Below are positions 14,486 to 40,715 of a DNA stretch of 64,000 nt, in pieces. Origin of the DNA: Pimelobacter simplex (lineage in GTDB: Bacteria; Actinomycetota; Actinomycetes; Propionibacteriales; Nocardioidaceae); the NCBI GenBank assembly GCA_016803235.1, contig JADCLI010000019.1:37114-101113 (forward strand). Direction: 5' to 3'. The position numbers and the translations under genes are program-made. Below the pieces are notes generated by a model that made no database searches, had not been told where the DNA came from, and worked only from the letters and a program-made list of their open reading frames with translations. Numbering within the stretch: the stretch's first letter is position 1; every line of letters begins with the position of its first letter.

Positions 14486-14526
14486 GGGGTTTTCCGTTCT
14501 GTTGGTGAGGTCATCGAGCAGCCCCA

Positions 14527-19083: not shown

Positions 19084-19093
19084 CGCGATCGAC

Positions 19094-20692: not shown

Positions 20693-20740
20693 AGGTGTTC
20701 CTTTCGCAGGGTGCGGGAGGTCCGAGAGGGGTGAGGGTGG

Positions 20741-21826: not shown

Positions 21827-21868
21827 GCCGTGCCTCCTGTCCCGGTCGCCGATCTGGAATGTCTATCA

Positions 21869-21890
21869 ATCTACTCGACAAACTGTAGAT
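21869..21890. promoter_or_regulatory. Inverted repeat in the ROK/dioxygenase divergent promoter region
   Basis: ATCTAC (21869-21874) and GTAGAT (21885-21890) are 6-bp arms separated by 10 bp in an AT-rich patch unlike its surroundings. It lies 43 bp upstream of the ROK start and 160 bp upstream of the dioxygenase start. Candidate ROK operator; inference only. Confidence 0.4.
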
Positions 21891-22050
21891 CACGACGGAG
21901 GGTGCCGTGCAACCGTGTCCCGGGATCCGGGCGGGTTCGGCTCACGGTGAGCGAAAGCCTTGTCCGACGCGGGTTTCCTCCCCACCGTTGGGCCTCGTTC
22001 GATCCCTGGTGACCCCCAGGGAGTTCCCCAGCGACCCGAAGGACGCCCTC

Positions 22051-22989: not shown

Positions 22990-23013
22990 GTGCCACGCGT
23001 CGGCGGCCGGGCG

Positions 23014-25812: not shown

Positions 25813-25825
25813 CGGCGCTCGCGGT

Positions 25826-25850
25826 GCCTCGGCCTGCGGACCGCCGAGGC
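25826..25850 (+). terminator. Hairpin after the MFS gene
   Basis: GCCTCGGC (25826-25833) and GCCGAGGC (25843-25850) form a perfect 8-bp GC stem with a 9-nt loop, 14 bp after the stop. No T-tract follows. Confidence 0.5.
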
Positions 25851-25870
25851 GCGGGGTTGGAGGAACGCTG

Positions 25871-25954
25871 ATGTTTATCGACGCGTACGATGTGACCGCG
25901 TTCACTCGGCCGGCCCGGTGCCGGTTTGCGAGAGGCATTGCCAGATCCGGTTGA
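25871..25954 (+). CDS. Short open frame with a duplicated leader (27 codons), possibly a gene remnant
   Basis: The ATG at 25871 has a strong TTGGAGGAACG ribosome site. The 20-odd bases around its start, GAGGAAC-N3-GATGTTTATCG, match the start region of the secreted protein gene at 38487 (GAGGAAC-N3-GATGTTTATCG). After MFI the two proteins diverge, and this one stops at 25954 (MFIDAYDV opening, Arg-rich middle, no signal peptide). It could be a leader peptide or the decayed 5' end of a paralogue of the DUF6801-like proteins that flank the Mce operon. Translation is unproven. Confidence 0.4.
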   Translation: MFIDAYDVTAFTRPARCRFARGIARSG

Positions 25955-25988
25955 CAGATCGGTAAACAGTGCTGTTTCTTATACCCGC
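25951..25988 (+). promoter_or_regulatory. Mce operon promoter/operator: AAACAG-TG-CTGTTT with TATACC
   Basis: The perfect palindrome AAACAGTGCTGTTT (25964-25977) is followed by TATACC (25980-25985) and CGCGAG. TTGACA lies at 25951-25956, but 23 bp from TATACC is too long for an ordinary -35/-10 pair. The same arrangement is found on the minus strand before the paralogue at 38487. Candidate site of the TetR regulator at 38670. Confidence 0.6.
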
Positions 25989-26035
25989 GAGTAGTCGTAC
26001 TCGCCAGTAGCAGATCCTTGGGAGGGGATGAGCGC

Positions 26036-27121
26036 GTGGTGGTTCGTGCTGTGCGACCGAAGCTGGTCCGGCGGGTCCCGGTGGTCGTCGGCGTGGCGGC
26101 CCTCGCGCTGCTCGGCGCTCCGCTCCCGACGGCCGGCGCCGACCTCGGTCCCGACCAGGAGATCAGCGTCAGCGGCGTCGAGTACGCCTGCAAGGCCAAG
26201 AACTCCGTGATCGATGCGACGGTCGGCGGTCCGCAGAAGTTCGTCGTCAACGCGCGCTCCACCGTGCCCTCCAGCTTCGACGGCGGCGAGACCATCCCCA
26301 CCCTGCCCGCCTCGCTGGACCTGGTCATGCCCGTCGCGCTCATGGACAAGATCCGGATCCTGCCGACCAACGGCCCCACCGGCAAGGTCGAGCGCCTCGG
26401 CGGCAGCGCGACCTCGGATGTCCTGCTCGAGGGCGTGGCGAGCGGCGGCGCGAAGCAGACCGTCCAGCGGCCGGTGCAGGACCTGGCGGCTCCCATGCAG
26501 GCCGTCCCGGCGACGGGGTCGATGACGATCGCCGACGTCAACGGGAGCGTCGGCTCCTTCACCGCGCCGAGCATCGGCGGCGACGGGCTGGTCTACGTCT
26601 CGCTGCCGTTCTACTTCCAGATCCACGCCAAGCTCGACCCGCCCGTCCTGGGCTCGATCGCCGAGACCGACCTCGACTGCTACCGGCTGTCGGACACCGC
26701 TGCGCAGCGGGTGATCGGGACGATCGAGGTCGGCGCCGGCTGCAGCACCAGCGCCTGCCCGCTGCCCGCGGTCGACCGCTCGACGGAGCCGACCTGGGTC
26801 CAGCGGGTCCGGGGTGGCGGCACCGGCAACCCCGGCAACCCGGGCAACCCGGGCAACCCGGGCACACCCACGGACCCGGGCACGCCCAGCCCGGGCGGCG
26901 CCGGCGTCGATCCCGGCGGCCAGACGCCCGTGGACGACGAGGACGACCCGGCCGGCTGGGGCCACGACAAGGCCGACGGTGGCGCCGACGAGGTCGTGGT
27001 GACCCGCGCCCTCGCCGACACCGGCTCGCCGGTCGGCGGCTGGGTCTTCGGCCTGCTCGCGGTGGCCGTGGTCGCCCGGATCGCGGTGGCCGTACGCCGG
27101 CGCGCCCCGCTGCGACGGTGA
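26036..27121 (+). CDS. Secreted DUF6801-like protein with LADTG class E sorting signal, first gene of the Mce operon
   Basis: 361 aa from GTG at 26036, with GGGAGGGG upstream. It has a signal peptide (about 1-36), then a beta-rich domain (about 42-225) with a cysteine pair C52/C214. The NARSTVPSSFDGGETI segment matches QAQSTIPSTVHAGQTI in the paralogue at 37489-38487; the pattern fits DUF6801-type domains from memory. Next come C235/C240, a Pro-Gly-Asn repeat linker (about 264-300), an acidic stretch, LADTG at 326-330 (27011-27025), a hydrophobic helix and an RRRAPLRR tail. This is a textbook wall-anchoring signal of the LAxTG type read by class E sortases, one of which is encoded at 36763-37416. 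Its stop overlaps the first YrbE start, so it is made together with the Mce transporter. Confidence 0.8.
   Translation: MVVRAVRPKLVRRVPVVVGVAALALLGAPLPTAGADLGPDQEISVSGVEYACKAKNSVIDATVGGPQKFVVNARSTVPSSFDGGETIPTLPASLDLVMPVALMDKIRILPTNGPTGKVERLGGSATSDVLLEGVASGGAKQTVQRPVQDLAAPMQAVPATGSMTIADVNGSVGSFTAPSIGGDGLVYVSLPFYFQIHAKLDPPVLGSIAETDLDCYRLSDTAAQRVIGTIEVGAGCSTSACPLPAVDRSTEPTWVQRVRGGGTGNPGNPGNPGNPGTPTDPGTPSPGGAGVDPGGQTPVDDEDDPAGWGHDKADGGADEVVVTRALADTGSPVGGWVFGLLAVAVVARIAVAVRRRAPLRR
26818..26862 (+). repeat. 9-bp tandem repeats encoding the PGN linker
   Basis: About four to five copies of GGCAACCCG encode Gly-Asn-Pro repeats in the wall-spanning linker of the LADTG protein. Coding microsatellite, likely length-variable. 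Confidence 0.7.
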
Positions 27122-27897
27122 GCACGCTCGCCGCCGCAGGACGACCCTTCACTGCTGCCGGTCGCCTCTTCGCCTTCGGTGCCGACTCCTTCCTGGCGGT
27201 GTTCCGCGGACCCCTGCAGGTGCGCGAGTTCGTCCAGCAGGCCTGGTTCCTCGCGTCGGTCACGATCATCCCGACGGCCCTGGTGGCGATCCCGTTCGGC
27301 GCGGTGATCGCCCTGCAGGCCGGGAGCCTGATCCAGCAGTTCGGCGCGCAGTCCTTCACCGGGTCGGCCGCCGTCCTCGCGATCGTGCGGGAGGCGGGTC
27401 CGATCGCGACCGCCCTCCTCGTCGCCGGAGCCGGCGGCTCCGCCATCGCGGCCGACCTCGGTGCCCGCAAGATCCGCGAAGAGCTCGACGCCATGATGGT
27501 GATGGGCATCGACCCGGTGCAACGCCTCGTCGTGCCGCGGGTGCTGGCCAGCATGCTGGTCGCCGTCTTCCTCAACGGCCTGGTCAGCTTCGTCGGCGTC
27601 CTGGGCGGCTACTTCTTCAACGTGATCCTCCAGGGCGGCACGCCCGGCGCCTACCTGGCCAGCTTCACCGCCCTCGCCCAGCTGCCCGACCTGTGGCAGG
27701 GCATGGCCAAGGCATTGGTGTTCGGCCTGATCGCCGGCGTGGTCGCCGCCTTCAAGGGCATGAACGCCGGCGGTGGTCCGCGTGGCGTCGGCCAGGCCGT
27801 CAACGAGACCGTCGTGATCACGTTCCTGCTGCTCTTCGTGGCCAACTTCGTGATGACCACGCTCTATTTCCAGATCATCCCGGCGAAGGCGTTGTGA
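27118..27897 (+). CDS. yrbEA: YrbE/MlaE-type ABC permease A of the Mce transporter
   Basis: 259 aa from GTG overlapping the previous TGA (GTGA). An MlaE permease with about five to six hydrophobic segments and the family's cytoplasmic loop REELDAMMVMGIDPVQRLVVPR, the coupling helix to the MceG/MlaF ATPase. It forms a heteromeric inner-membrane channel with the second YrbE protein and passes lipid or steroid cargo collected by the Mce proteins. No MceG ATPase gene is in the window, as is usual, since one ATPase often serves several mce operons. Confidence 0.95.
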   Translation: MSTLAAAGRPFTAAGRLFAFGADSFLAVFRGPLQVREFVQQAWFLASVTIIPTALVAIPFGAVIALQAGSLIQQFGAQSFTGSAAVLAIVREAGPIATALLVAGAGGSAIAADLGARKIREELDAMMVMGIDPVQRLVVPRVLASMLVAVFLNGLVSFVGVLGGYFFNVILQGGTPGAYLASFTALAQLPDLWQGMAKALVFGLIAGVVAAFKGMNAGGGPRGVGQAVNETVVITFLLLFVANFVMTTLYFQIIPAKAL

Positions 27898-28724
27898 TGG
27901 CGACCCTCGACTCCCTGCGCCGACGCTCCACCGGCCTCGTCGACGAGCTCGGCAGCCAGCTGGTCTTCTACGCACGCGCCATCTCGTGGCTGCCGGGCAC
28001 CCTGGTCCGCTATCCGCGGCAGACCTTCCACCTGCTCGGCGAGGTCGCCTTCGGCCAGGGGGCGCTGGCCGTCATCGGCGGCACCGTCGGCGTGGTCGTC
28101 GCGATGGCCTTCTTCACCGGCACCGAGGTCGGCCTGCAGGGCTACACCGCGCTCAACCAGCTCGGCACCGGTGCCTTCGCCGGCTTCTTCTCGGCCTACT
28201 TCAACACCCGCGAGATCGCGCCGCTCGTGACCGGCATCGCGCTCGCCGCCACCGTCGGGTGCGGGTTCACCGCGCAGCTCGGCGCCATGCGCATCTCCGA
28301 GGAGGTCGACGCCCTCGAGGTGATGGCGATCCGCTCGCTGCCGTACCTCGTCGGGACCCGGGTGATCGCCGGCCTGATCGCGGTGATCCCGCTCTACGTC
28401 GCGGGTCTGCTCTCGTCGTACGCCGCCACGCGGCTGACCGTGACCCTGGCCTACGGACAGAGCAGCGGCACCTACGACCACTACTTCACCCTGTTCCTGC
28501 CACCGGCCGACATCGCGTGGTCGTTCGTCAAGGTGCTGGTCTTCGCCGTCGTGGTGATCCTGGTGCACTGCTACTACGGCTACACCGCCACCGGCGGACC
28601 GGTCGGGGTCGGCATCGCGGTGGGCCGCGCCGTACGGACCTCGATCGTGGCGATCAACGTCATCGACCTGCTGCTCTCGATGGCCATCTGGGGGACCACC
28701 ACCACCGTCAGGCTGGCCGGCTGA
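27897..28724 (+). CDS. yrbEB: YrbE/MlaE-type ABC permease B of the Mce transporter
   Basis: 275 aa from the ATG at 27897 (TGATG overlap of one base). It has an amphipathic N-terminus, five to six membrane helices, and the coupling loop SEEVDALEVMAIRSLPYLVGTR corresponding to the EExDAxxxMGI motif of partner A. It ends in a helix before the TVRLAG tail. The partner of YrbEA. The long frame upstream of 27897 is a shadow of that gene. Confidence 0.95.
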   Translation: MATLDSLRRRSTGLVDELGSQLVFYARAISWLPGTLVRYPRQTFHLLGEVAFGQGALAVIGGTVGVVVAMAFFTGTEVGLQGYTALNQLGTGAFAGFFSAYFNTREIAPLVTGIALAATVGCGFTAQLGAMRISEEVDALEVMAIRSLPYLVGTRVIAGLIAVIPLYVAGLLSSYAATRLTVTLAYGQSSGTYDHYFTLFLPPADIAWSFVKVLVFAVVVILVHCYYGYTATGGPVGVGIAVGRAVRTSIVAINVIDLLLSMAIWGTTTTVRLAG

Positions 28725-29971
28725 TGGCCCGCGTCGCGCTGCACCAGCGCACCGGCGTGGTGCGCACCTGCGGCATCGTCTTCCTCGCCCTCATCCTGGC
28801 GGTCCTCTGGCTGACCCACGCGGTGTTCACCAAGAGGTTCAGCGACGACGTGCCGGTGACCGTCGTGAGCGAGCGGGTCGGGCTCGCGCTGAGCAAGAAC
28901 GCCGACGTCAAGCTCCGTGGCGTGATCGTCGGCCGGGTCGAGACGATCGCGGTCGACGGCGGGGCCGCCGAGATCGACCTGCGACTCGACCCCGACCTCG
29001 CCACCACCATCCCGGCGCAGGTCGAGGCGTTCATCGTGCCGAAGACCCTGTTCGGGGAGAAGTACGTCGACCTGCGCCCGGTCGCCGGCTCGGGCGGCCG
29101 AGCCATCGCCGCCGGCGCCCGGATCCGGCAGGGCACGATCCCGGCCGAGGTCGAGCGGCTCCTCGACGACGCCTACCCGCTGCTCACCGCGGTCGAGCCG
29201 GCGCAGCTCTCGGCCACGCTCACCGCACTCTCCGAGGCGCTCGACGGACAGGGCGACGACCTGGGCGCCTCGCTCGACGAGCTCGAGGACTACCTCGTGA
29301 AGCTCGAGCCGCTCAGCGACGAGCTCGTCGACGACATCGTGGCGCTCGGTGAGGTCTCCGAGACCTACGGCGACGCGATGCCCGAGATCGGCGACCTGCT
29401 CGCCGACGCGGTGGTCACCGGCGACACCGTCGTCGCGAAGGAGCAGCAGATCGCGAAGCTCTTCGCCGGGGTCGACGAGCTGGCCGACACCACGGACGCC
29501 TTCCTCGACGAGCACGGCGACGAGGTGATCACCCTCGCCCACGAGTCGCAGGCGACCCTCGACCTGCTGGCCCGGTACGCGCCGACGCTGAGCTGCGTGC
29601 TGACCGGCATCAAGGGCCTGATGCCGCGTCTCGACGAGGCCTTCCGCGACCAGCGCGCCCATGTCTCGATCGAGTTCGGCCCACGCCTCGCGACCGGCTA
29701 CGCCGCCGGGGAGGACCCGACGTACCCAGCGGTCGGCAGCGCGCCGGGTCCGAGCTGCCGGACCCTGCCGAACCCGCCGTACGACGGCGCCACGCCCGCG
29801 CCGGGAGCGCCGGCCGACGTCCTGGCCCTCTTCGGCATCGCCGACCACCGCCGGAGCATGGTCACCGAGCTGGTCGCCGGCGCGGCGGGCGTGGACCCCC
29901 GCCAGGTCCCGGACCTGGCCACCGACGTCGTCGCCCCCGCCCTGCAGGGCGCGGAGGTGAGCGTCCGGTGA
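28724..29971 (+). CDS. mceA: MceA-type lipid-transport protein
   Basis: 415 aa from the ATG at 28724, one-base overlap with yrbEB. One N-terminal membrane helix (CGIVFLALILAVLWLTHAVF), then the MlaD/Mce domain (about 38-120) with VKLRGVIVGRVETI and FGEKYVDL hallmarks. The long helical region (about 150-300) is rich in LSDELVDDIV-type heptads that build the transport tunnel in Mce assemblies. The C-terminus is Pro/Gly-rich. MceA is usually the first of six subunits forming the hexameric ring and needle that moves hydrophobic molecules across the envelope. Confidence 0.95.
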   Translation: MARVALHQRTGVVRTCGIVFLALILAVLWLTHAVFTKRFSDDVPVTVVSERVGLALSKNADVKLRGVIVGRVETIAVDGGAAEIDLRLDPDLATTIPAQVEAFIVPKTLFGEKYVDLRPVAGSGGRAIAAGARIRQGTIPAEVERLLDDAYPLLTAVEPAQLSATLTALSEALDGQGDDLGASLDELEDYLVKLEPLSDELVDDIVALGEVSETYGDAMPEIGDLLADAVVTGDTVVAKEQQIAKLFAGVDELADTTDAFLDEHGDEVITLAHESQATLDLLARYAPTLSCVLTGIKGLMPRLDEAFRDQRAHVSIEFGPRLATGYAAGEDPTYPAVGSAPGPSCRTLPNPPYDGATPAPGAPADVLALFGIADHRRSMVTELVAGAAGVDPRQVPDLATDVVAPALQGAEVSVR

Positions 29972-31047
29972 AGCGCTGGGACCGGACCAGCGTCGGGGCG
30001 CTGGTCAAGCTGCTGAGCTTCCTCGTCGCGACCGCCCTGATGACGACCGCCATCGCGATGGTCATCGGCAACGCGTCCTTCGACGAGCGCACCGAGTACC
30101 AGGCCGTGTTCTCCGACGCCACCAGCCTGGTGACCGGCGACGACGTCCGGATCGCGGGGGTCCGCGTCGGCCGCGTCACCGACGTCGATGTGCGCGGCGG
30201 CACCGAGGCCGTGGTCGGCTTCTCCGTGGACTCCTCGGTCACCCTCACCGACGCCACCGTCGCCGCCCTGCGCTATCGCAACATGGTCGGGCAGCGCTAC
30301 CTGGCCCTGAGCCCGGGTCTCGAGGGCCGCGGACGGCCGCTACGTGCGGGCGGGACGATCCCGATCGCGCGCACGACGCCCGCGCTCGACCTCACGGCGC
30401 TGTTCGCCGGGTTCAAGCCGCTGTTCCGGGCCCTCGACCCGGAGCAGACCAACCAGCTCGCCTTCGAGCTGATCCAGGTCTTCCAGGGGGAGAGCGGGAC
30501 CGTGACCTCCCTGCTCGACCGGACCGCGTCGCTGACGGGCACCCTCGCCGATCGCGACCGGCTGATCGGTGACCTGATCGGCAACCTCACCGCCGTCCTC
30601 ACCACCTTCAACGACCGGGACACCGAGCTGGCCGACACCATCTCCACCCTGCAACAGCTGATCGCCGGCCTCTCCGAGGACCGGGGGCAGCTGCTCGGCG
30701 GACTCGACCCGATCGCGGACCTCGCCGACTCGACGGCCCACCTCCTCGGCGACATCCGGGAGCCGCTGGCCGCGGACCTCGCCGGGCTCGCCGCGCTGAG
30801 CGCCAGCCTGGACACGCCCTCGGCGCGGACCCGTCTCGACCAGACCGTGAAGGTGCTGCCCATCAAGCTCGACCGGCTCACCAGTGCCATGGCGTACGGC
30901 TCCTTCTTCAACTTCTACGTCTGCGAGATCGGCGTGCGCGGGTCACTGCCGGCACTGCCGACGGTCCAGGGCTGGCAACAGCGCCGCGACTTCTTCACCA
31001 CGACGCGCGTGAAGGTCCAGGGAGAGGGTGTGGAGCGATGCCGATGA
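29968..31047 (+). CDS. mceB: MceB-type lipid-transport protein
   Basis: 359 aa from GTG (GTGA overlap with mceA). An N-terminal helix LLSFLVATALMTTAIAMVIG anchors an MCE domain starting YQAVFSDATSLVTGDDVRIAGVRVG, with the downstream YRNMVGQRYLALSPG element. The rest is helical (YrbE-type needle helices). The ending FFNFYVCEIGVRGSLPALP is a conserved MceB C-terminal feature. Second subunit of the six-part Mce complex. Confidence 0.95.
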   Translation: MKRWDRTSVGALVKLLSFLVATALMTTAIAMVIGNASFDERTEYQAVFSDATSLVTGDDVRIAGVRVGRVTDVDVRGGTEAVVGFSVDSSVTLTDATVAALRYRNMVGQRYLALSPGLEGRGRPLRAGGTIPIARTTPALDLTALFAGFKPLFRALDPEQTNQLAFELIQVFQGESGTVTSLLDRTASLTGTLADRDRLIGDLIGNLTAVLTTFNDRDTELADTISTLQQLIAGLSEDRGQLLGGLDPIADLADSTAHLLGDIREPLAADLAGLAALSASLDTPSARTRLDQTVKVLPIKLDRLTSAMAYGSFFNFYVCEIGVRGSLPALPTVQGWQQRRDFFTTTRVKVQGEGVERCR

Positions 31048-32015
31048 AGCCGGTCCGCGACCGCAACCCCACCGTCGTCGGCGTCGTCGGCGTCGCGATC
31101 CTGGTCCTCGCCCTGGGCCTCGCCCTCAGCGCCAAGCACCTCCCGGTGATCGGCGACGGCGCGACCTACCGCGCTCAGTTCACCGAGGTCGGGGGCCTGA
31201 AGAAGGGCGACGACGTCCGGATGGCCGGCGTGCGGGTCGGCAAGGTCACCGGGCTCGACCTCGACGGCGCCACCGTCACGGTGTCGTTCACGATGAGCAG
31301 CAGTGCCGACCAGCTCCGCGCCGACACCGAGGCCTCGATCCGGATCAAGACCCTGCTGGGGACGATGTACGTCGCCCTCGAGCCGAAGGGCAAGGGACGT
31401 CTCGACGCCGACGACACCATCCCGACCTCGCGGACCACGCCGCCGTACGACGTCGTGGCCGCGTTCTCGGACCTGGCGACGACCACCCAGCAGATCGACA
31501 CCGACCAGCTCGCGCACGCGATGGACGTGCTGGCCGACGCCAGCGAGGACACCCCCGAGGGCTTCCGTGGCACCGTCGACGGCATCACCCGCCTCTCGCA
31601 GAACCTCGTCAAGCGGGACGAGCAGATCGACGCCCTGCTGAAGAACCTCTCCGGGGTCGCCGACACCCTCGATGCGCGCAAGGGCGAGCTCGCCCGGCTG
31701 TTCCGCGACGGCGGCACGCTGTTCGCGGCGCTGACGGCGCGGCGCGATGCCGTGCACGACCTGCTCGTCGCCGTCCGCGAGCTGAGCACGCAGCTGCGCG
31801 GCCTGGTCCGCGACACCCGAGCGACACTGAAGCCGACCCTGACCCATCTCGACAGCGTGCTCGACGTGCTCGAGGCCAACGAGAAGAACATCGATGCCGC
31901 CCTGGCGAAGCTGCCCACGTTCTACGACGGCGTGAACAGCGCCACCGGCAACGGCCCCTGGATCGACGGCTTCATCTACAACCTGATGAGCATGCTGGGG
32001 GTGCCTGGACTGTGA
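31038..32015 (+). CDS. mceC: MceC-type lipid-transport protein
   Basis: 325 aa from the ATG at 31038, overlapping mceB by 10 nt. One membrane helix (VVGVVGVAILVLALGLALSA), MCE domain with YRAQFTEVGGLKKGDDVRMAG and LLGTMYVALEPKG, then a long helical segment. The short C-terminus NGPWIDGFIYNLMSML is typical for MceC. Third subunit of the complex. Confidence 0.95.
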   Translation: MPMKPVRDRNPTVVGVVGVAILVLALGLALSAKHLPVIGDGATYRAQFTEVGGLKKGDDVRMAGVRVGKVTGLDLDGATVTVSFTMSSSADQLRADTEASIRIKTLLGTMYVALEPKGKGRLDADDTIPTSRTTPPYDVVAAFSDLATTTQQIDTDQLAHAMDVLADASEDTPEGFRGTVDGITRLSQNLVKRDEQIDALLKNLSGVADTLDARKGELARLFRDGGTLFAALTARRDAVHDLLVAVRELSTQLRGLVRDTRATLKPTLTHLDSVLDVLEANEKNIDAALAKLPTFYDGVNSATGNGPWIDGFIYNLMSMLGVPGL

Positions 32016-33217
32016 GTGCCGTCGAGTCACACGGTGGTCGGGGAGGCCGGATCCGTCCCCGAGCGGTCATCGGCGTCGTCGCCCTGTTCGCGGTCGTGGT
32101 GACCGTCGCCCTCGCGGGGGCGGGCGTGATCAGGCTGTGGCCCGGCCAACGCGAGCAGCAGCTGACCGTCGACTTCAGCCGCACGGTGTCGCTCTACCCG
32201 GGCTCGAACGTGCGGATCCTCGGCGTCACCGTCGGGACCGTCGACTCCGTCACGCCGATGGGGACGAAGGTGCGGGTCCGGCTGTCCTGGGACGCCCGCT
32301 ATCCCGTCCCCGAGGACGTGCACGCCATCATCGTCTCGCCGGCGATCGTCGGCGACCGGTTCGTCCAGCTGACCCCCGCCTACGAGGGCGGCAGGAAGCT
32401 GGCGGACGGTGCCCACCTCGACCAGGCACGCACCGAGGTCCCTGTCGAGCTGGACGAGACCTATGCGGCCCTCGACCAGCTCGCGACCGCGCTGGGCCCG
32501 GACGGCGCGAACCGCGACGGCGCCCTGGCCCGGCTGGTGAGCAACGGGGCGCGCAACCTCGACGGCCAGGGTGCCGAGCTGAACCAGTCCATCACTGCGC
32601 TCTCCGAGCTCAGCAGCACCTTCGCCGACAACAAGGACGAGTTCTTCGAGGCGATCACCGAGCTCGCCGGCTTCGTGCAGATGCTCGACGCCAACGACGC
32701 CGCCGTCCGCGAGTTCAACACGAGCCTGTCCGCCGTGTCCCAGGTGCTCGCCGGCGAGCGCGACGACCTCACGGCCGCGCTGTCCTCGCTGGCCGGATCG
32801 CTCGGCGAGGTCGAGCGGTACGTCGCCCAGAACCGGACGTCCCTCAAGGGCACCGTCAAGGGCCTGTCGAAGGTGGCCGAGACACTGGCCCGCAACAAGG
32901 AGCACCTCGCTGAGGTGCTGGTCGGCGGACCGGACGCGATCACGCACCTCGTGTCCGCCTACAACCCGGCCACCGGCACCCTGGAGACCCGCGGCCTGCT
33001 GAAGTCGCCGACCAGCGACGACTTCTCCCTGCTCACCCAACCGGCGGTGGTCGCGGCGTACTGCGGTCTCGCGGCAGAGCAGAACCCCGACCAGGCCGAC
33101 GCCTGCTACGCCGTCGGGAGCGTCCTCCAGCAGCTGGCCGCCGGCGCCTCCGGTGCGTCCTCGTCGCGGACCGCCGAGGCCGGTGGCCTCGACGCGCTCA
33201 TGGGAGTCGCCCCGTGA
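32012..33217 (+). CDS. mceD: MceD-type lipid-transport protein
   Basis: 401 aa from GTG at 32012 (GTGA overlap). The N-terminal cytoplasmic stretch is followed by a helix (VIGVVALFAVVVTVALAGAGVI), an MCE domain (LTVDFSRTVSLYPGSNVRILG, VGDRFVQLTPAY) and helical repeats. The C-terminal LLTQPAVVAAYCGLAAEQNP region includes cysteines at conserved MceD positions. Fourth subunit. Confidence 0.95.
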   Translation: MSAVESHGGRGGRIRPRAVIGVVALFAVVVTVALAGAGVIRLWPGQREQQLTVDFSRTVSLYPGSNVRILGVTVGTVDSVTPMGTKVRVRLSWDARYPVPEDVHAIIVSPAIVGDRFVQLTPAYEGGRKLADGAHLDQARTEVPVELDETYAALDQLATALGPDGANRDGALARLVSNGARNLDGQGAELNQSITALSELSSTFADNKDEFFEAITELAGFVQMLDANDAAVREFNTSLSAVSQVLAGERDDLTAALSSLAGSLGEVERYVAQNRTSLKGTVKGLSKVAETLARNKEHLAEVLVGGPDAITHLVSAYNPATGTLETRGLLKSPTSDDFSLLTQPAVVAAYCGLAAEQNPDQADACYAVGSVLQQLAAGASGASSSRTAEAGGLDALMGVAP

Positions 33218-34317
33218 CCGGCGTCCGGGCGCGGGTCGCCGTACCGGCCGCCGCCCTATGCCTCAGCGTGGCCCTGGCCGGCTGCTCCGGGTCCGTGGGC
33301 GACGTCCCGCTGCCCGGCGGCGCCGACGTCGGCGACCGGCCGTACTCCGTCACGGTCGACTTCGAGAACGTGCTCGACCTGGTCCCGCAGAGTGCGGTCA
33401 AGGTGAACGACGTGTCGGTGGGCCGGGTCACCGACATCTCCTTGGAGGGCTGGCACGCCCGGGTGCGGCTGCTGATCAACGGCGACGTGACGCTGCCCGA
33501 CGACGCGACCGCGAGCATCCGGCAGACCAGCATCCTCGGGGAGAAGTTCGTCTCCCTCGCGCCGCCGGACGGCGGTGGCTCCGGGCGGCTCGGCGACGGC
33601 GATGCGATCCCGATCGCCAACACCGGCCAGAACCCGGAGATCGAGCAGGTGCTCGGCGCGCTCTCGATGGTGCTCAACGGCGGCTCGGTGGCCAAGCTCT
33701 CCGCGATCACCCGCGAGCTCAACGACACCATCGAGGGCCGCGAGAGCGACCTGCGCATCCTGCTGCGCCGCCTCGACACGATCGTCGGCACCGCCGACGA
33801 CTCCAAGCGGGACCTGGTCAAGGCCCTGCGCCAGGTCGACCGCCTCGCGAGCGCCACCCGCAGCCAGACCACGGCGATCGAGTCCGCCCTGGACCGGCTC
33901 CCGGCGGCGCTGCGGGTCCTCGACTCCCAGCGCGACGACCTGGTCGCGATGATCTCCTCCCTCACCTCCCTCAGCGACGTCGCGACGGAGGTGATCGACA
34001 AGTCCCACGCGGCCACGGTCCGCGACCTGAGGCGACTGGCTCCGATCGTGGCCCAGCTGGCCCGCAGCGGGGACGCGCTGGTCGACGCCCTGCGCGTGCT
34101 GCCGACCTTCCCGTTCCCCGACGCGGTGGTGGGCAACACCCCCGAGCAGGCGGCACAGGCCGCGACCGGCGACTACCTCAACACCGTCATGGACTTCAAC
34201 ACCGACGTCGGCAGGACGCTCGCGGCGATGACCCCGGCGGAGCGGGACGCGATGATCGCCTGGCTGCAGTCCCAGGACGGCGTGGCCTCGGTCGTGGCGG
34301 GGAGTGCGGTCCAGTGA
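33214..34317 (+). CDS. mceE: MceE-type lipoprotein
   Basis: 367 aa from GTG (overlap with mceD). The signal sequence ends in the lipobox LALAGC, lipidated C24, which is the known special feature of the fifth Mce protein (LprK-like). MCE domain: YSVTVDFENVLDLVPQSAV and ILGEKFVSLAPP. The helical region runs to about 300. Lipidation should anchor this subunit to the outer leaflet of the membrane. Confidence 0.95.
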   Translation: MTGVRARVAVPAAALCLSVALAGCSGSVGDVPLPGGADVGDRPYSVTVDFENVLDLVPQSAVKVNDVSVGRVTDISLEGWHARVRLLINGDVTLPDDATASIRQTSILGEKFVSLAPPDGGGSGRLGDGDAIPIANTGQNPEIEQVLGALSMVLNGGSVAKLSAITRELNDTIEGRESDLRILLRRLDTIVGTADDSKRDLVKALRQVDRLASATRSQTTAIESALDRLPAALRVLDSQRDDLVAMISSLTSLSDVATEVIDKSHAATVRDLRRLAPIVAQLARSGDALVDALRVLPTFPFPDAVVGNTPEQAAQAATGDYLNTVMDFNTDVGRTLAAMTPAERDAMIAWLQSQDGVASVVAGSAVQ

Positions 34318-35507
34318 GGCTCACCCTGCGTACCCAGCTCGTGGCGCTGCTGGTGATCGCCGTCGCCGGCTCCACCTGGATCGGCGCCCGGTACGCCGAC
34401 CTGGGCCGGCTCCTCGGCCGGGGCGGCTACACCGTGACCGTGCACCTCGCGGACTCGGGCGGCATCTTCGCCGGCGCCGACGCGACGTACCGCGGCGTCA
34501 GCGTGGGCCGGGTGCGGACCATGACGCTCACCGCCGGCGGTGTGGACGCCCAGGTGGAGATCGAGCGCTCGGCGCGGATCCCCTCCGACACGATCGCCGT
34601 CGTCGCCAACAAGTCAGCGGTCGGCGAGCAGTACCTCGACCTCCAGCCGCGCAGCGACGGCGGGCCGTTCCTGCGCGACGGCTCCGAGATCGCCCGCAGC
34701 GCGACGAGGATCCCGGTGCGCACCGACGCGCTGCTCACCAACCTGGACACCCTGGTCGCCTCGGTCTCCACCGACGACCTGCGTACGGTGGTCGACGAGC
34801 TCGGCGTCGCGTTCGCCGGCACCGGCCCGCAGCTGCGGCAGCTGATCGAGTCGTCCTCGGAGGTCATCGCCACCGCACAGGAGAACTACGACGTCACCGC
34901 GCAGCTGATCCGGGACTCCCGGGTCGCGCTCCAGGCCCAGGTCGACCACGGCGACAACATCACCACGTTCGTGCACAACCTCGCCCTGCTCTCGGAGGCG
35001 ATCCGCGCCGCGGACCCCGACCTGCGACAGGTGATCGACAAGGGCGCGTCGGCCGCCCGCACGCTCGAAGCCGTGATCGCGGAGAACGCCAAGCCGCTCG
35101 GTCGCCTGGTGGAGAGAATGGTGACGACCAACCGCGTGGTGCGCGCGCACCTGCCCGGCATCCAGGGCGTGCTCGTGCTGGCGCCCTACGGGCTCGAGGG
35201 GGCGTACTCGATCCTCGCCAAGGACCCCGTGACCGGGAAGTACGCCGCCCGCTTCAGTCTCTCGATGCAGCCGGCTCCGGACGTCTGCACCAATGGGACG
35301 CCGGTCCGCCCGCCGTTCGACACCTCCCCGGGCTCCCCGGAACGGGCGGCGAAGGTGGGCGGGTGCACGTCGCCGCGGATCGTGGCGACCTACGACGAGA
35401 CGACCAAACGGCTGCTGCCGGGGGTGGGAGTCCCCGAGACGGCGGCGAAGGACGAAGGAGGTGAGTCGTGGCGGTCACTGGTGGTCGGGGCGGCGGTGCG
35501 GGAGTGA
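34314..35507 (+). CDS. mceF: MceF-type lipid-transport protein
   Basis: 397 aa from GTG at 34314 (GTGA overlap with mceE). One membrane helix (TQLVALLVIAVAGSTWIGARY), MCE domain (YTVTVHLADSGGIFAGADATYRG and SAVGEQYLDLQPRS), then long helices. A Pro-rich tail contains VCTNGTPVRPP and CTSPRIV cysteines. Sixth and last Mce ring subunit. The next gene starts 40 nt inside its 3' end. Confidence 0.95.
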   Translation: MRLTLRTQLVALLVIAVAGSTWIGARYADLGRLLGRGGYTVTVHLADSGGIFAGADATYRGVSVGRVRTMTLTAGGVDAQVEIERSARIPSDTIAVVANKSAVGEQYLDLQPRSDGGPFLRDGSEIARSATRIPVRTDALLTNLDTLVASVSTDDLRTVVDELGVAFAGTGPQLRQLIESSSEVIATAQENYDVTAQLIRDSRVALQAQVDHGDNITTFVHNLALLSEAIRAADPDLRQVIDKGASAARTLEAVIAENAKPLGRLVERMVTTNRVVRAHLPGIQGVLVLAPYGLEGAYSILAKDPVTGKYAARFSLSMQPAPDVCTNGTPVRPPFDTSPGSPERAAKVGGCTSPRIVATYDETTKRLLPGVGVPETAAKDEGGESWRSLVVGAAVRE

Positions 35508-36034
35508 GCGGACCGACCGAGCGATGGGCTGCCGCGCGGCCCGTGGCGCTGGTCCTGGTCGCGGTCCTCCTCGCCGGCGTCGCCCTCGGCGTCCGGGCGC
35601 TGGTGCGTCCGGTGTCCGCTCAGCAGGAGCACGCCGACGCACGCGCGGACGCGGTCGCCGCGGCATCGCGGTTCGCGACGAGCGTCAACACCTACGACGT
35701 CACGGACGTGCCGGCGTACACCGACCGGGTGTCCGCGCTGCTCACCGAGCCGTTCGCCGAGCAGTTCCGGGCCTCCACGGACGGCCTGCTCGCCGCGTAC
35801 GCCGAGACCGGCCTGAAGAGCCGGGGGAAGGTGCGCCAGGCGGCCGTGGACAGCATCGACTCCGACTCCGCACAGGTCCTGGTCGCCGTCGACGCGGAGA
35901 CGACGCCCGCGGGGCTGCTGACCAACCCGCCGCGGCTGCGGTGGGAGGTCTCCCTGGTGCGGGAGAAGGGCGCCTGGCTGGTCGACGACTTCCGGGCCGT
36001 CGAGGCGGCGACAGGCAAGGGGGATGAGAAGTGA
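35468..36034 (+). CDS. Mce-associated membrane protein
   Basis: 188 aa from GTG at 35468, which has a near-perfect ribosome site (AAGGAGGTGA, 35455-35464) inside mceF. A second in-frame GTG at 35504 is less likely. One N-terminal helix (VALVLVAVLLAGVALGVRALV), then an extracytoplasmic domain with helical start (HADARADAVAAASRFAT) and a SnoaL/NTF2-like ending (WEVSLVREKGAWLVDDFRAV). Mce-associated (Mas/Mam) proteins of this type are thought to stabilise Mce complexes. Confidence 0.88.
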   Translation: MAVTGGRGGGAGVSGPTERWAAARPVALVLVAVLLAGVALGVRALVRPVSAQQEHADARADAVAAASRFATSVNTYDVTDVPAYTDRVSALLTEPFAEQFRASTDGLLAAYAETGLKSRGKVRQAAVDSIDSDSAQVLVAVDAETTPAGLLTNPPRLRWEVSLVREKGAWLVDDFRAVEAATGKGDEK

Positions 36035-36711
36035 GCATCCGGCAGCCGCGACGATCCGCCGCCGCCCCCCGCCGCCGGCCCCGCGTGGCGGGCCAGGGCG
36101 CCGCCGTACGGCCGGGGGACCTCCCGCCCGAGGAGCGGCCGGCCGCGGCGGAGGACGAGACCGCCCCCGTCGAGCGGGCCGAGGACACCGGACGCGGCCG
36201 CGCGCGCGTGCCGCGGCGCAGCTGGCGTTGGCTGGCGCCGCTGCTGGTGGCCAGCGTGGCCGGCGCGGCCTTCGGCGCGGTGGCCACGATGCAGCGTGCC
36301 GACCGCGACGCGAGGGCCACTGCCCAGGTCGCGGCGCAGGACGCGGCGGCCTCGGCGGCCGCGAGCGCCGCCGAGGACGTCCTCAGCTATGCGCACGACA
36401 CGGTCGCCGACGACCTCGCCGCCGCCCAGGAGCGGATGACGCCGGCGTTCGCCGAGGAGTTCGCGGAGGTGGTCCCGACCGTGACCTCGCTGGCCGAGCA
36501 GCGGCAGCTGGTCGTGACCGCGACGGTGCGCAACGTCGCCGTCGTCGACTGCGGCGAGGAGTGCTCGTCCTCGACGGTGCGGGTGCTCCTCTTCGTCGAC
36601 CAGGAGCGGACCGGGGACGGCAGGACCCTGGACCCGATCGAGATCCGCACGGTGCTGACCATGACCCGCTCGAAGGGCGAGTGGCTGGTCAGCGACTCGG
36701 TCTCCCTCTGA
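36031..36711 (+). CDS. Second Mce-associated membrane protein
   Basis: 226 aa from GTG (overlaps the preceding TGA). A 65-residue Arg/Pro/Glu-rich cytoplasmic N-terminus, one helix (WLAPLLVASVAGAAFGAVATM), an Ala-rich coiled stretch, and a compact extracytoplasmic domain with a cysteine pair (VDCGEECSS) and the ending VLTMTRSKGEWLVSDSVSL that parallels the C-terminus of the preceding protein. Last gene of the operon; a terminator hairpin follows. Confidence 0.88.
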   Translation: MSIRQPRRSAAAPRRRPRVAGQGAAVRPGDLPPEERPAAAEDETAPVERAEDTGRGRARVPRRSWRWLAPLLVASVAGAAFGAVATMQRADRDARATAQVAAQDAAASAAASAAEDVLSYAHDTVADDLAAAQERMTPAFAEEFAEVVPTVTSLAEQRQLVVTATVRNVAVVDCGEECSSSTVRVLLFVDQERTGDGRTLDPIEIRTVLTMTRSKGEWLVSDSVSL

Positions 36712-36715
36712 CCTC

Positions 36716-36769
36716 CCTCTGGTCCCGGCCGAGCGTTCTTCCTCCCCCTCCCACGGCCGGGATCAGAGG
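36716..36769. terminator. Bidirectional terminator between the Mce operon and the sortase gene
   Basis: CCTCTGGTCCCGGCCG (36716-36731) pairs with CGGCCGGGATCAGAGG (36754-36769), 16 bp with one mismatch and a C/T-rich loop. It includes the last codons of the convergent sortase gene. Confidence 0.7.
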
Positions 36770-37416
36770 TGAGCGCTCGAGACCAGGTGTCCGTGCACGA
36801 TCGAGCGGTCCTCGGTGGTGGTCAGGTCCGCACAGGTCACCAGCGTGATCAGCGCGCGCTCGGGGACTGCCCTGGGGCGACCCGGCACCGGGCGGATCAC
36901 GCTGGTGTCGCTCGCGGGGACCTCGATGTCGGTGCCGCCGTCGTCGAGCACGTAGGTGTACACGTGGGTGCGGGTCTCCACCGTCACCTCGTCGCCGGCC
37001 CGGAGGGAGGGGAAGTCGGCGAAGGGTTGTCCGCGGGTGACCCGGTGACCGGCGACGGCGAAGTTGCCGATCTGGCCGGGGCGGGCCGTGTCGGAGAAGT
37101 GCCCGACCCCCGAGGCCAGGTCGTCCTCGCCGACGCCCTGGATGACCGGCACCTCGAAGTCGCTGCCGAAGCGGGGGATCCGCAGCACGGCGAAGCCCTC
37201 GCCCAGCCGGAGCGGGTCGGTCGTCGCGTCGCCCCTGCGATCACCCCACTCGTCCTGGAGGGCTCCGACGACGTCGCGCTGGCGCTGCTCCGCGGCGACG
37301 TTGGTCCCCCACAGCTGCCAGCCGAGCCAGGCGACCAGGGCGACGATGAGCAGGCTCAGCAGGGACGGCAGGATCCGTCCCCGCGTGCGCCGGGAGGTCG
37401 GGATGCGATCGGACAT
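36763..37416 (-). CDS. Class E-type sortase
   Basis: 217 aa with an N-terminal membrane helix (about 14-33) and the sortase beta-barrel. The catalytic triad is H124 in VAGHR, C195 in the TLVTC motif, and R204 in TTEDRSIVHGH. No C-terminal membrane helix, as in class E/D housekeeping sortases of actinobacteria. Class E enzymes cleave LAxTG rather than LPxTG and attach proteins to peptidoglycan cross-links. The only protein I find in this window with such a signal is the first Mce-operon product (LADTG, 326-330). Its promoter is separate, as a strong terminator lies upstream (37441-37472). Confidence 0.9.
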   Translation of the reverse strand: MSDRIPTSRRTRGRILPSLLSLLIVALVAWLGWQLWGTNVAAEQRQRDVVGALQDEWGDRRGDATTDPLRLGEGFAVLRIPRFGSDFEVPVIQGVGEDDLASGVGHFSDTARPGQIGNFAVAGHRVTRGQPFADFPSLRAGDEVTVETRTHVYTYVLDDGGTDIEVPASDTSVIRPVPGRPRAVPERALITLVTCADLTTTEDRSIVHGHLVSSAHL

Positions 37417-37440
37417 GGCCTCGTGGGGGAAATGGCGAAA

Positions 37441-37472
37441 CCCGGCGGGGCGTCGTGCGACGCCCCGCCGGG
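37441..37472 (-). terminator. Strong intrinsic terminator after the secreted paralogue
   Basis: CCCGGCGGGGCGTCG (37441-37455) and CGACGCCCCGCCGGG (37458-37472) form a perfect 15-bp stem with a TG loop. Read on the minus strand it is followed by GTTTCGCC. It separates the DUF6801-like gene from the sortase gene. Confidence 0.85.
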
Positions 37473-37488
37473 GTCTCGGTCCAGCGGA

Positions 37489-38487
37489 CTACTTGACGAC
37501 CTTGACCTTGACGGTCGTGGTCGCACCGAGGGAGTTGGCGTCTCCGGCGTAGGTGACGGTCAGCTTGTGCTTGCCCGCCTTCTTGAACTTCTTGAGCTTG
37601 ATCGTGGCCGCGCCGTTGGCGACGGTGCCGGTGCCCACCGTCTTGCCCTTGAGGGTGACCGTGACCGCGCCGGTGGCAGCGGCGTCCGAGGCGACCTGGA
37701 CGGTCAGCTTCGGGGCCTTCTTCTTGGCCTGGACCTTCTTCGGCTTGAGCTTCGCCGACGTGATCGTCGCAGGCGCCTTGGTCACGGTGACCGGGCTGCC
37801 GAGCAGGGTGTCGTCTGCCTGGTCGAGGACGCACGTCATGTCGGTCTTGACGTTCTGATAGTCCGGGACGCCGGAGCCGTCGTCGAGCCATCCGCCCTTG
37901 ATCAGCGCACCGGCCGTGAACTTCTGCGGCATGTGCAGGCTGAGCTTCTTGCCGGTGGCGTTCGCCGGGATCTTGACGGCCCGGACCGTGCCCGCGGTCG
38001 GGATCACCCACGGCGCCGGCGGGGTCCAGACGTCGGGTGCAGCGACGGGGATCGGCGCGTCCTTGACGCTGAGCCCGTCGATCGGCACCCAGGCGGGCGC
38101 GGCGCCGTCGAGGGAGACACCCAGGGTGGAGTCGGTCGAGGAGCCGTCGACCGCGTTGGCGACGTGGGTGAGCGCCTTGTTGGCCAGCCACAGGTTGTCC
38201 GACATGTGCAGCGTGATCTTCGTGGGCGTCGGCGCGATGGTCTGTCCCGCGTGGACGGTCGACGGGATGGTCGACTGGGCCTGGACCTCGACCGGGTGGT
38301 TGCCCAGGCTTGCCGAGTCGGTGCCGATGGTGACGATCGGCTCGCAGTCGTAGGTGAACGTCTTGTCGATCGTGATCACGCTGTTCGCGGCCTGCGCCGG
38401 GGCGCCGAAGGACGCGACGGTCAGCGCGGCCGAGGCCAGTCCGCCCGCGGTGAGCGCGGCGAGCCGGCGGGGTGAAGCGATAAACAT
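37489..38487 (-). CDS. Secreted DUF6801-like protein with C-terminal Ig-like domain, paralogue of the Mce-operon LADTG protein
   Basis: 332 aa from the ATG at 38487 (GAGAGGAAC ribosome site). A TTG one codon earlier is less likely. Signal peptide 1-33 ending AQA. The first domain (about 36-225) has a cysteine pair C48/C219, matching C52/C214 of the protein at 26036, and QAQSTIPSTVHAGQTI aligns with NARSTVPSSFDGGETI there. A Lys-rich linker (KLKPKKVQAKKK) leads to a bacterial Ig-like repeat domain ending LTVTYAGDANSLGATTTVKVKV. No sorting signal or membrane anchor: it should be released or bound non-covalently, in contrast with its sortase-linked paralogue. The Lys-rich linker could bind cell-wall polyanions. 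Confidence 0.8.
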   Translation of the reverse strand: MFIASPRRLAALTAGGLASAALTVASFGAPAQAANSVITIDKTFTYDCEPIVTIGTDSASLGNHPVEVQAQSTIPSTVHAGQTIAPTPTKITLHMSDNLWLANKALTHVANAVDGSSTDSTLGVSLDGAAPAWVPIDGLSVKDAPIPVAAPDVWTPPAPWVIPTAGTVRAVKIPANATGKKLSLHMPQKFTAGALIKGGWLDDGSGVPDYQNVKTDMTCVLDQADDTLLGSPVTVTKAPATITSAKLKPKKVQAKKKAPKLTVQVASDAAATGAVTVTLKGKTVGTGTVANGAATIKLKKFKKAGKHKLTVTYAGDANSLGATTTVKVKVVK

Positions 38488-38490
38488 CAA

Positions 38491-38669
38491 TGTTCCTCTC
38501 GGGGGTATAAACGTTGCTGTTTCTCGGAAGTGTTGCAGGTCACCCAGGCTGCGGCAAGATCAACAAGGCATCTCGTAAACAGGAGTTGCACCGAGCGTTG
38601 CGACGAGCCGTGTCCACCATCAGGACCAACGTCCCGAGACGCGGGCGCCGCCGTTCGTAGAATCGCCGC
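38491..38669. promoter_or_regulatory. Divergent control region with AAACAG elements
   Basis: Minus strand: AAACAGCAACGTTT (38522-38509) followed at once by TATACC (38509-38504) and CCCGAG, the same layout as the Mce operon promoter. Plus strand: GTAAACAG at 38575-38582 as a further half site. The TetR start has TAGAAT at 38658-38663. The 179 bp are AT-richer than neighbouring genes. Confidence 0.6.
38658..38663 (+). promoter_or_regulatory. -10 hexamer TAGAAT of a leaderless promoter
   Basis: TAGAAT ends 6 nt before the TetR ATG at 38670, with no ribosome-binding site. Confidence 0.5.
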
Positions 38670-39296
38670 ATGGGGGCCGACCATCTGCCGTCCGGACGAC
38701 ACGGCCTGACGCCGGAGCAGGTCCGCGAGGACCAGCGCCGCCGGCTGCTGTCGGCGACGGCGATCTGCATGGCGGAGCGCGGCTACACCGACACCTCGGT
38801 GGCCGACATCATCGAGCGGGCGGGAGTGTCCCGCAAGACCTTCTACGAGCTCTTCGCGGACAAGGCCGACGCCTTCTCGGCGGCCTACGAGACCGGCGTC
38901 GCGGGACTGATGCACGACGTCGGCGAGGCGATCGGTCCCGACGGCACCTGGCACGAGCGCGTGGTCCGGGGCCTGACCGCCCTCGCCGAGTCCGTGGCGC
39001 GCAGCCCGGCCTTCGCCACCCTCTGCATCATGGAGGTGTGGGCGGCCGGTGACGCAGCCCGCCGCCGCCACTTCGAGGTGGTGGCCGGGTTCCGCACCTT
39101 CCTCGACGAGCTCTCCGACGAGGTCAGCGAGCAGCTGTTCAGCGGCATCGTGGGTGCGCTGTCGACCATGCTCTACCACGAGATCGACGAGGGGCGCGTC
39201 GAGCAGCTCACCGAGATCGTGCCCGACATGGTGGCCTTCGTCGAGCCTCCTCTGGAGGCGGTCCGCGCGCGGAAGGGCGGGCGGTCCGGGTCCTGA
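38670..39296 (+). CDS. TetR family regulator, probable controller of the Mce/sortase locus
   Basis: 208 aa. The helix-turn-helix (about 20-66) has RRRLLSATAICMAERGYTDTSVADIIERAG and the recognition segment VSRKTFYELFADK. The larger C-terminal domain (TetR_C type) is helical, with room for a hydrophobic ligand. It is divergent from the DUF6801-like gene, with AAACAG-type sites in between and a perfect AAACAGTGCTGTTT palindrome at the Mce operon promoter 12.7 kb away. I infer that it represses both units until a lipid or steroid ligand binds. It ends exactly where a 26-bp hairpin begins. Confidence 0.88.
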   Translation: MGADHLPSGRHGLTPEQVREDQRRRLLSATAICMAERGYTDTSVADIIERAGVSRKTFYELFADKADAFSAAYETGVAGLMHDVGEAIGPDGTWHERVVRGLTALAESVARSPAFATLCIMEVWAAGDAARRRHFEVVAGFRTFLDELSDEVSEQLFSGIVGALSTMLYHEIDEGRVEQLTEIVPDMVAFVEPPLEAVRARKGGRSGS

Positions 39297-39359
39297 CGTC
39301 GCACCTGACGAATGGGCTGTGATCCAGGCGAATTCACAGCCCATTCGTCAGGTGCGACG
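39297..39359. terminator. Perfect 26-bp hairpin between convergent genes
   Basis: Arms 39297-39322 and 39334-39359 (outer CGTCGCACCTGACGAA, inner TGGGCTGTGA) are perfectly complementary around an 11-nt loop. It starts one base after the TetR stop, and its right arm contains the MFS stop codon (39348-39350). No T-tract; it works in both directions by symmetry. Confidence 0.7.
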
Positions 39360-40649: not shown

Positions 40650-40655
40650 CCCGAC

Positions 40656-40661
40656 AGGCTA
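40656..40661 (-). promoter_or_regulatory. -10 hexamer TAGCCT of a leaderless promoter
   Basis: TAGCCT ends 6 nt before the GTG of the MFS gene. Confidence 0.5.
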
Positions 40662-40715
40662 GGGACCGCCGGCGTCGCGCGATGAATCGGCCCCGCTGCG
40701 ACGGTCGACACGTGC

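Follow-up and report, generated by a model that had tools for sequence, protein, structure and literature searches.

A putative wall-anchored DUF6801 partner of an actinobacterial Mce transporter and its neighbouring class E sortase

The genome of Pimelobacter simplex (5.36 Mb in 82 contigs) contains, on contig JADCLI010000019.1, a Mce transporter operon whose first gene encodes a DUF6801 protein with a sortase sorting signal (DUF1) and which is followed, on the opposite strand, by a gene encoding a class E sortase. The window referred to throughout is the whole analysed stretch of 64,000 nucleotides of this one contig, and positions are counted from its first base. At the level of sequence the partnership of DUF1, Mce transporter and sortase is well supported, and the unit (DUF6801 anchor protein, YrbE and Mce proteins, Mce-associated or Mas proteins and convergent class E sortase) was found in 15 genomes, six of Mumia, six of Aeromicrobium and three of the “Nocardioides version”, a term used here for the window genome, Nocardioides sp. 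SLBN-35 and N. daeguensis. Based on this evidence, it can be hypothesized, with about an even chance of being right, that the cluster encodes a lipid ABC transporter of the Mce type and, dedicated to it, a wall-fixed DUF6801 partner for lipid capture and hand-over. A preliminary description of this stretch had remarked that no Mce system with a dedicated sortase substrate was described; our search agrees with it, as no description of a Mce operon with a sortase-anchored partner was found in the searchable literature (preprints and most subscription journals excluded).

The genes encoding DUF1, YrbEA, YrbEB, MceA-F and two Mce-associated proteins form one tight operon on the forward strand (26036-36711); gene calling in the window relied on the G+C content of third codon positions (GC3) only. 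The DUF1 gene (26036..27121, 361 aa) overlaps by 4 bases (27118-27121) with that of the MlaE-family permease YrbEA (27118..27897; PF02405, 235.7 bits), which is followed by the permease YrbEB (27897..28724; PF02405, 214.5 bits) and by MceA (28724..29971; PF11887 and PF02470), the nearest solved relative of which by sequence is 8fed_A (111.5 bits). MceB (29968..31047), MceC (31038..32015), MceD (32012..33217) and MceE (33214..34317) scored 201.5, 212, 215.9 and 210.5 bits, respectively, with TIGR00996 (cut-off 140.5 bits). MceF (34314..35507) was recognized by its reading frame, from which its start (overlapping MceE) was taken, and by tblastn matches to MceF in 12/12 Mumia and Aeromicrobium loci. 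The operon ends with Mce-associated protein 1 (35468..36034; start uncertain, overlapping MceF), which reached 25.2 bits with NF051431, under the cut-off of 37, and Mce-associated protein 2 (36031..36711), which had no family match in Pfam or NCBIfam; both are conserved in position. The six MCE-domain proteins encoded after the two YrbE/MlaE permeases identify a Mce transporter of the actinobacterial type, and the two YrbE, six Mce and two Mas-like genes stand in the order usual in Mce1, Mce4 and the operons of Actinomycetales. Unlike in these known systems, the operon in the window opens with a sortase-anchored DUF6801 protein and is accompanied by its own class E sortase. Sortase, LPXTG and TetR do not occur in a survey of mce operons in Actinomycetales from 2007 (PMC1810536), and no wall-anchored Mce subunit is named in the passages of PMC9882608 consulted.

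DUF1 comprises a signal peptide, a DUF6801 domain (PF20611, 68.5 bits; cut-off 26 bits), a linker of PGN/PGT repeats, the motif LADTG beginning at residue 326 of 361, a hydrophobic stretch predicted as a membrane helix and the basic tail RRRAPLRR, the signal peptide, helix and PGN linker being assigned by eye. The first-gene DUF6801 orthologues of all 15 genomes display the features of a sortase substrate, namely signal peptide and helix (both judged by eye), L[PA]xTG and an Arg-containing basic tail, and a long Gly/Pro/Asp-rich linker between domain and anchor was recognized by eye in the 13 orthologues that were aligned. The preliminary description had expected an LAxTG substrate and had regarded homologues devoid of LADTG-type signals as an argument against its proposal. 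No such homologue was found among the 15, and the LAxTG form is that of the three Nocardioides-version anchors (LADTG); the remaining 12, all from Mumia and Aeromicrobium, carry LPATG instead. For contrast, 29 other loci were examined, one per genome at the best match and excluding the second DUF6801 protein of the window (DUF2, L020); four of these lacked a visible stop and were omitted. Among the 25 proteins retained, a sorting signal (LAxTG with a tail) was present in four, all of them tandem-DUF6801 proteins from Aeromicrobium that are encoded 3-4 kb upstream of the Mce cluster, and in 0/20 sampled proteins away from a Mce/sortase cluster, including one (L029) with a helix and a basic tail but no L[PA]xTG. 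This distribution suggests that, among the proteins sampled, wall signals go with the Mce cluster.

The sortase gene (36763..37416, reverse strand) is convergent to the operon, and its product is assigned to class E by NF033747 (195.1 bits vs a cut-off of 160), with H124, C195 and R204 as the catalytic His, Cys and Arg. The preliminary description was exact on these residues, on the opposite strand, and on the LADTG motif and tail of DUF1, and every part it named was found at the positions it gave. In an unrooted tree the sortases of the 15 loci separated from 33 other class E-like sortases (UFBoot 95), which were drawn from DUF6801-bearing genomes only and include some under the NF033747 cut-off. 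When aligned to 5cuw and counted back from His251, all 15 locus sortases have Phe at the position of SrtE1 Tyr229 in the beta3/beta4 loop, and thus differ from SrtE1 in the residue proposed to read Ala at P3. Tyr was found at this position in only 3/33 of the other sortases, which indicates that Tyr229 does not define class E in these genomes; Phe was considered as a mark of enzyme-substrate pairing and dropped, because 16/33 of the other sortases share it. The window genome holds a second class E sortase elsewhere.

Conservation of the unit was evaluated in 120 genomes of the family. PF20611 was detected in 33 of them, the window genome included; of these 33, 30 have YrbE and 24 a class E sortase over the cut-off. 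Linkage was observed in 13/33, the DUF6801 gene lying 0.5-1.6 kb upstream of a same-strand YrbE gene and the sortase gene following on the other strand after another 9-10 kb or so. These 13 are the window genome and all six DUF6801-bearing genomes of each of the genus groups g18 (Mumia) and g16 (Aeromicrobium), a count of 12/12 that covers only genomes with a DUF6801 match (one g16 genome, G016, has none). The other 20 show no linkage, three of them being without a YrbE match, and two further Nocardioides records (SLBN-35 and N. daeguensis) also carry the unit. Thus, the DUF6801-yrbE linkage on which the preliminary description had staked its proposal is retained in relatives. By a rough estimate, linkage would arise by chance with a probability of <0.01 per genome (at most eight DUF6801 places, two operons, 3.1 Mb, one side and strand); since the genomes are related, the persistence of the unit is better evidence than this estimate.

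In tblastn searches with the window proteins the gene order was identical in 12/12 Mumia and Aeromicrobium loci, with identities of 80-87% for YrbEA, 75-80% for YrbEB, 44-63% for MceA-F, 53-59% for the sortase and 34-47% for the DUF6801 protein. A concatenated YrbE/Mce tree (eight proteins, 22 operons, unrooted) separated the 15 operons with an anchor protein from seven others, among them the rpoB-linked operon of the window genome itself (UFBoot 100). The chromosomal setting of the unit differs between genera: it precedes rpoB in the 3/3 Mumia loci checked (gene names confirmed for L032), two of which have rplL on the opposite flank; its neighbours in the two Aeromicrobium loci checked are an ECF-type transporter and a gene of MaoC-like type; and it sits in yet another setting in the Nocardioides version. 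Mce operons that adjoin rpoB and have neither anchor protein nor sortase were observed in g5, in g8 and in the window genome (L049, L045 and L068). Within Nocardioides the unit is rare, a full-length match being obtained in 2/196 genomes, plus SLBN-35, and with profile A1 only the window genome matched among 396 genomes of the phylum. These searches scored part of the candidates of each genome (up to 11 in the 196 Nocardioides, five with A1 and up to nine with PF20611 in the phylum), so that absence in them is soft; a scan for further relatives with two narrow patterns returned seven loci and covered SLBN-35 and N. daeguensis.

A gene for the MceG ATPase is lacking from the operon in the window. 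MceG/Mkl has been described as encoded away from the operon in mycobacteria and just upstream of yrbEA in other genera (PMC1810536), and both arrangements occur here: as in mycobacteria, the ATPase of the window unit is encoded elsewhere, whereas an ATPase gene lies between the anchor gene and yrbEA in the 8/8 Mumia and Aeromicrobium loci inspected (of 12). The ATPase of one such locus was searched, and its nearest NCBIfam model was MlaF, below the cut-off of that model. The candidate cognate ATPase in the window genome is an MceG relative 81% identical to that of Mumia (C8:74354-75277), encoded before another mce operon that is itself followed by rpoB; SLBN-35 and N. daeguensis likewise encode an MceG relative away from the unit. 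The window genome has 14 YrbE matches in seven pairs, and thus apparently seven mce operons.

DUF6801 genes are found at Mce operons outside the family as well. PF20611 matched in 6/396 genomes of the phylum, the window genome being one and three belonging to genus g24 of another family, in which at least five other genomes among those listed have no DUF6801 match. All three g24 carriers have their DUF6801 gene 2-3 kb away from yrbE and beside MceG, in the order DUF6801-MceG-YrbEA-YrbEB-MceA-F in two (L111 and L112, from G394 and G458) and divergent from MceG in the third (L113, from G532). The g24 proteins (about 520-530 aa) are apparently secreted and exceed the PF20611 cut-off, with the domain in the N-terminal part only; they have no sorting signal, and no sortase was detected within 18-20 kb by tblastn with the window sortase and a motif scan. 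L111 and L113 encode a further neighbour protein (363 and 344 aa, respectively) without a Pfam match. The remaining two phylum carriers are unlinked, one being without a YrbE match and the other having 20, none near the DUF6801 gene. In addition, a small, apparently secreted and unanchored protein is encoded directly after the second Mas gene of the rpoB-linked mce operon of a g8 genome (G026, L044:15088-15825). It scored 36.5 bits with the DUF1-subfamily profile, 19.5 bits with the other subfamily profile and 21.4 bits, below the cut-off, with PF20611. The other profile includes five of the nine sequences tested, so that both profiles are independent only with respect to this protein and the three from g24; no similar frame was seen at the same place in the other g8 genome (L045). 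These observations point, tentatively and as something possible rather than probable, to a general role of DUF6801 as the extracellular component by which actinobacterial Mce transporters receive lipids across the wall at the needle. The domain would act in free form in g24 and 3' of the g8 operon, and fixed by a sortase in Nocardioides, Mumia and Aeromicrobium. If true, this would answer how Mce needles obtain cargo in the absence of an outer membrane.

The predicted model of the DUF6801 domain of DUF1 has a pLDDT of 94.8. Its best fold match was 3lso, a “putative membrane anchored protein” of Corynebacterium, and no known ligand-binding fold was matched in the fold search. 3lso was considered as a possible HtaA haem-binding protein, a candidate that was dropped because an HtaA domain taken from a relative retrieves solved HtaA domains and never 3lso. 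Searches of the PDB with DUF6801 profiles gave no sequence relatives (one returned only five chance-level matches, E 0.21 or worse), NCBIfam gave no match for DUF1, DUF2, one g24 DUF6801 protein and the g8 protein, and no literature on DUF6801 was found in searches that did not reach preprint servers and most subscription journals.

DUF2 (37489..38490, reverse strand) is a predicted secreted protein that combines a DUF6801 domain (PF20611, 98.3 bits) with a Big_3_5 Ig-like domain (PF16640, 41.4 bits) and, though encoded beside the Mce cluster, has no L[PA]xTG signal, in agreement with the preliminary description, which had placed an unanchored second DUF6801 protein here, followed by a TetR gene. 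DUF6801 sequences were aligned in A2 (37 sequences after removal of five weak ones, L025, L026, L028, L029 and L030; L012, L027 and the N. daeguensis DUF1 lie outside the set of 42 stretches); a further alignment, A3, has 25 sequences. The domain tree ruled out that DUF2 is a recent duplicate of DUF1, as DUF2 falls in a widespread subfamily (support 96) and the DUF1 group stands apart (100). The DUF6801 domain of DUF2 is acidic and its C-terminal 99 aa, the Ig-like tail, are strongly basic (pI 10.7), suggesting that the protein may be retained in the wall. Of the shuttle role that had been proposed for a free paralogue, the lack of an anchor stands, but the basic tail may speak against free diffusion. 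A G+C hairpin followed by TTTCG (37438..37474, reverse strand; 82-base fold of -44.5 kcal/mol), a candidate terminator or attenuator, separates DUF2 from the sortase gene located 3' of it; as this strong hairpin has a weak T run, part of the transcription of the sortase gene may start at the DUF2 promoter. A terminator scan, which requires a stronger T run, did not list the hairpin.

In the Mumia and Aeromicrobium loci a distant counterpart of DUF2 was detected only in Aeromicrobium, as an anchored protein with tandem DUF6801 domains. In L041 (469-5967) this protein has PT repeats and an LAxTG anchor, lies 3-4 kb upstream of the Mce cluster and adjoins an ECF-type transporter (PF09819 permease; the ATPase is nearest to ECF models, below their cut-offs); the DUF6801 part also occurs in the other five Aeromicrobium loci. 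In a fifth tandem protein (L007, from G043) LAAAG replaces LAxTG and is possibly a degenerate sorting signal. Given its ECF-type neighbour in Aeromicrobium, DUF6801 may serve more than one importer. A third DUF6801 protein of the window genome (C39:11972-12415; L031:6676-7575) has a Big_3_5 domain and no anchor, and its neighbours are, judging from their sequences, what we take to be histidine-biosynthesis-like genes.

A pattern derived from the clear palindrome before the operon matched four sites in the 64 kb vs 0.16 expected, one pair preceding DUF1 and the other DUF2, with none elsewhere. These operator-like sites are site B at 25862..25879 (reverse strand, GATAAACATCAGCGTTCC), located at the start of a DNA block kept in the three Nocardioides-version genomes (25860/25861); site A at 25961..25978 (forward strand, GGTAAACAGTGCTGTTTC), the near-perfect palindrome that precedes the operon; a second site B at 38479..38496 (forward strand, GATAAACATCAATGTTCC), at the DUF2 start codon and partly coding; and a second site A at 38506..38523 (forward strand, TATAAACGTTGCTGTTTC), before DUF2. 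The four-site consensus gave four matches in the 5.36-Mb genome, all at the cluster, and its reversed control none; since the consensus was built from the same sites, the result speaks for their local occurrence and no more. SLBN-35 and N. daeguensis retain all four, and the three Nocardioides-version genomes agree throughout the last ~50 bases before DUF2 but diverge further up. The TetR-type gene (38670..39296, forward strand) is divergent from DUF2 (PF00440, 45.4 bits, cut-off 24; no NCBIfam TetR model above cut-off) and convergent with a gene for an MFS transporter (39348..40649, reverse strand; PF05977, 105.9 bits); in the two relatives TetR is 81 and 91% and MFS 92 and 96% identical. On sequence comparison both TetR and MFS are particular to the Nocardioides version, with no relative of either found by tblastn within the 20-kb Mumia and Aeromicrobium loci; in these loci (L032-L043) no operator-like site was found at up to one mismatch. 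The adjacent TetR is the likely regulator of the four sites, and the TetR switch envisaged in the preliminary description gains weight because the sites lie at exactly the two DUF6801 promoters; as a property of the unit it is confined to the Nocardioides version. No sigma-70-like promoter was detected in 25700-40700 with a model built for phyla other than that of the host.

Altogether, a model can be proposed in which DUF1 is secreted, cut at L[PA]xTG by the locus sortase and joined by it to peptidoglycan, so that the DUF6801 beta domain, on its Gly/Pro-rich tether, would be placed within the wall or at its surface, over the Mce needle that rises from the membrane. From this position the domain might take up a hydrophobic ligand, be it a lipid, a fatty acid or a steroid, and pass it to the Mce hexamer, for import by YrbEA/YrbEB powered by the MceG ATPase from another mce locus. 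In the Nocardioides version TetR would probably respond to the presence of cargo by switching the operon jointly with DUF2 and the sortase gene that follows it, and DUF2 would probably be held in the anionic wall by charge as a second binder. To our knowledge, Nocardioides, Mumia and Aeromicrobium have no outer membrane of the double-membraned type, and lipid must therefore cross the wall to the needle by another way; a wall-fixed first-gene protein with its own sortase group is a concrete candidate for this route. In Gram-positive haem uptake (Isd/NEAT, HtaA) a beta domain anchored to wall or membrane takes up the hydrophobic ligand and delivers it to an importer in the membrane, and the capture and hand-over proposed for DUF1 would be analogous. 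DUF6801 would also resemble Mas proteins and LucB as an accessory partner of Mce systems, but, unlike LucB, which lies in the membrane and has been reported from double-membraned genera only (PMC9882608), it is predicted to be an extracellular beta domain.

Class E sortases have been reported in Streptomyces, where SrtE1 and SrtE2 act with chaplins (PMC5148588), and in Actinoplanes, where SrtE acts with SspA, CwpA and CwpB (PMC13251363). The locus studied here shares with them an NF033747 enzyme and a substrate that combines a signal peptide with L[PA]xTG, a helix and a basic tail; in contrast to those systems, the substrates of which are described as morphogenesis proteins, enzyme and substrate flank a transporter operon. 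Should the proposed role of DUF1 be true, lipid uptake would join the roles of class E sortases, which in these two systems are linked to morphogenesis, and DUF6801 would gain its first functional context. The conserved unit points to an unstudied outer part of this type of Mce transporter, and these environmental bacteria offer a test of a wall-fixed Mce partner.

The same unit would be conserved, with a sortase still dedicated to it, if the anchored DUF6801 protein were a positional tether that secures the Mce needle to the wall by gripping its distal end and does not itself bind cargo. The long linker and the failure to match a ligand-binding fold agree with this explanation, which we nevertheless hold unlikely, since unanchored DUF6801 proteins occur at Mce operons in another family and 3' of the g8 operon, where a wall tether would be senseless, and since the domain is also present in genomes without YrbE. 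A different view is that the wall protein is a co-regulated adhesin or envelope protein, sorted by any class E sortase and without a role in transport; many DUF6801 proteins are unlinked to Mce, the genome has another class E sortase, and the Phe common to so many other sortases leaves no visible pairing signature. Retention of the whole unit in different chromosomal settings at the MceA-F identities given above, the presence of at least two DUF6801 subfamilies at Mce operons in two families and the operator-like sites common to both DUF6801 genes make such a bystander role quite improbable.

Capture and hand-over by DUF1 also presuppose import. Sequence cannot give the direction of transport and parts of the MlaE/MlaD type fit both, so that Mce/YrbE could export a lipid which the anchored DUF6801 protein receives or places in a wall layer, and the position of the Mumia cluster among core genes would suit such a housekeeping envelope role. 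Yet mycobacterial Mce1 and Mce4 import fatty acids and cholesterol (PMC9947336, PMC9882608) and a local regulator, as in the Nocardioides version, suits uptake of an occasional substrate; outward transport is thus, in our view, decidedly improbable.

No defence-family match was found. Upstream of the Mce operon, positions 12146-22989 of the window encode a sulfatase, a sulfatase-modifying enzyme, a peptide-type ABC transporter and a TauD-family dioxygenase, probably a cluster for the use of sulfate esters that is unrelated to the Mce unit. When the 10 kb upstream of the unit in the two relatives are compared with this region, its TauD part (21547-22998) alone recurs, in SLBN-35.

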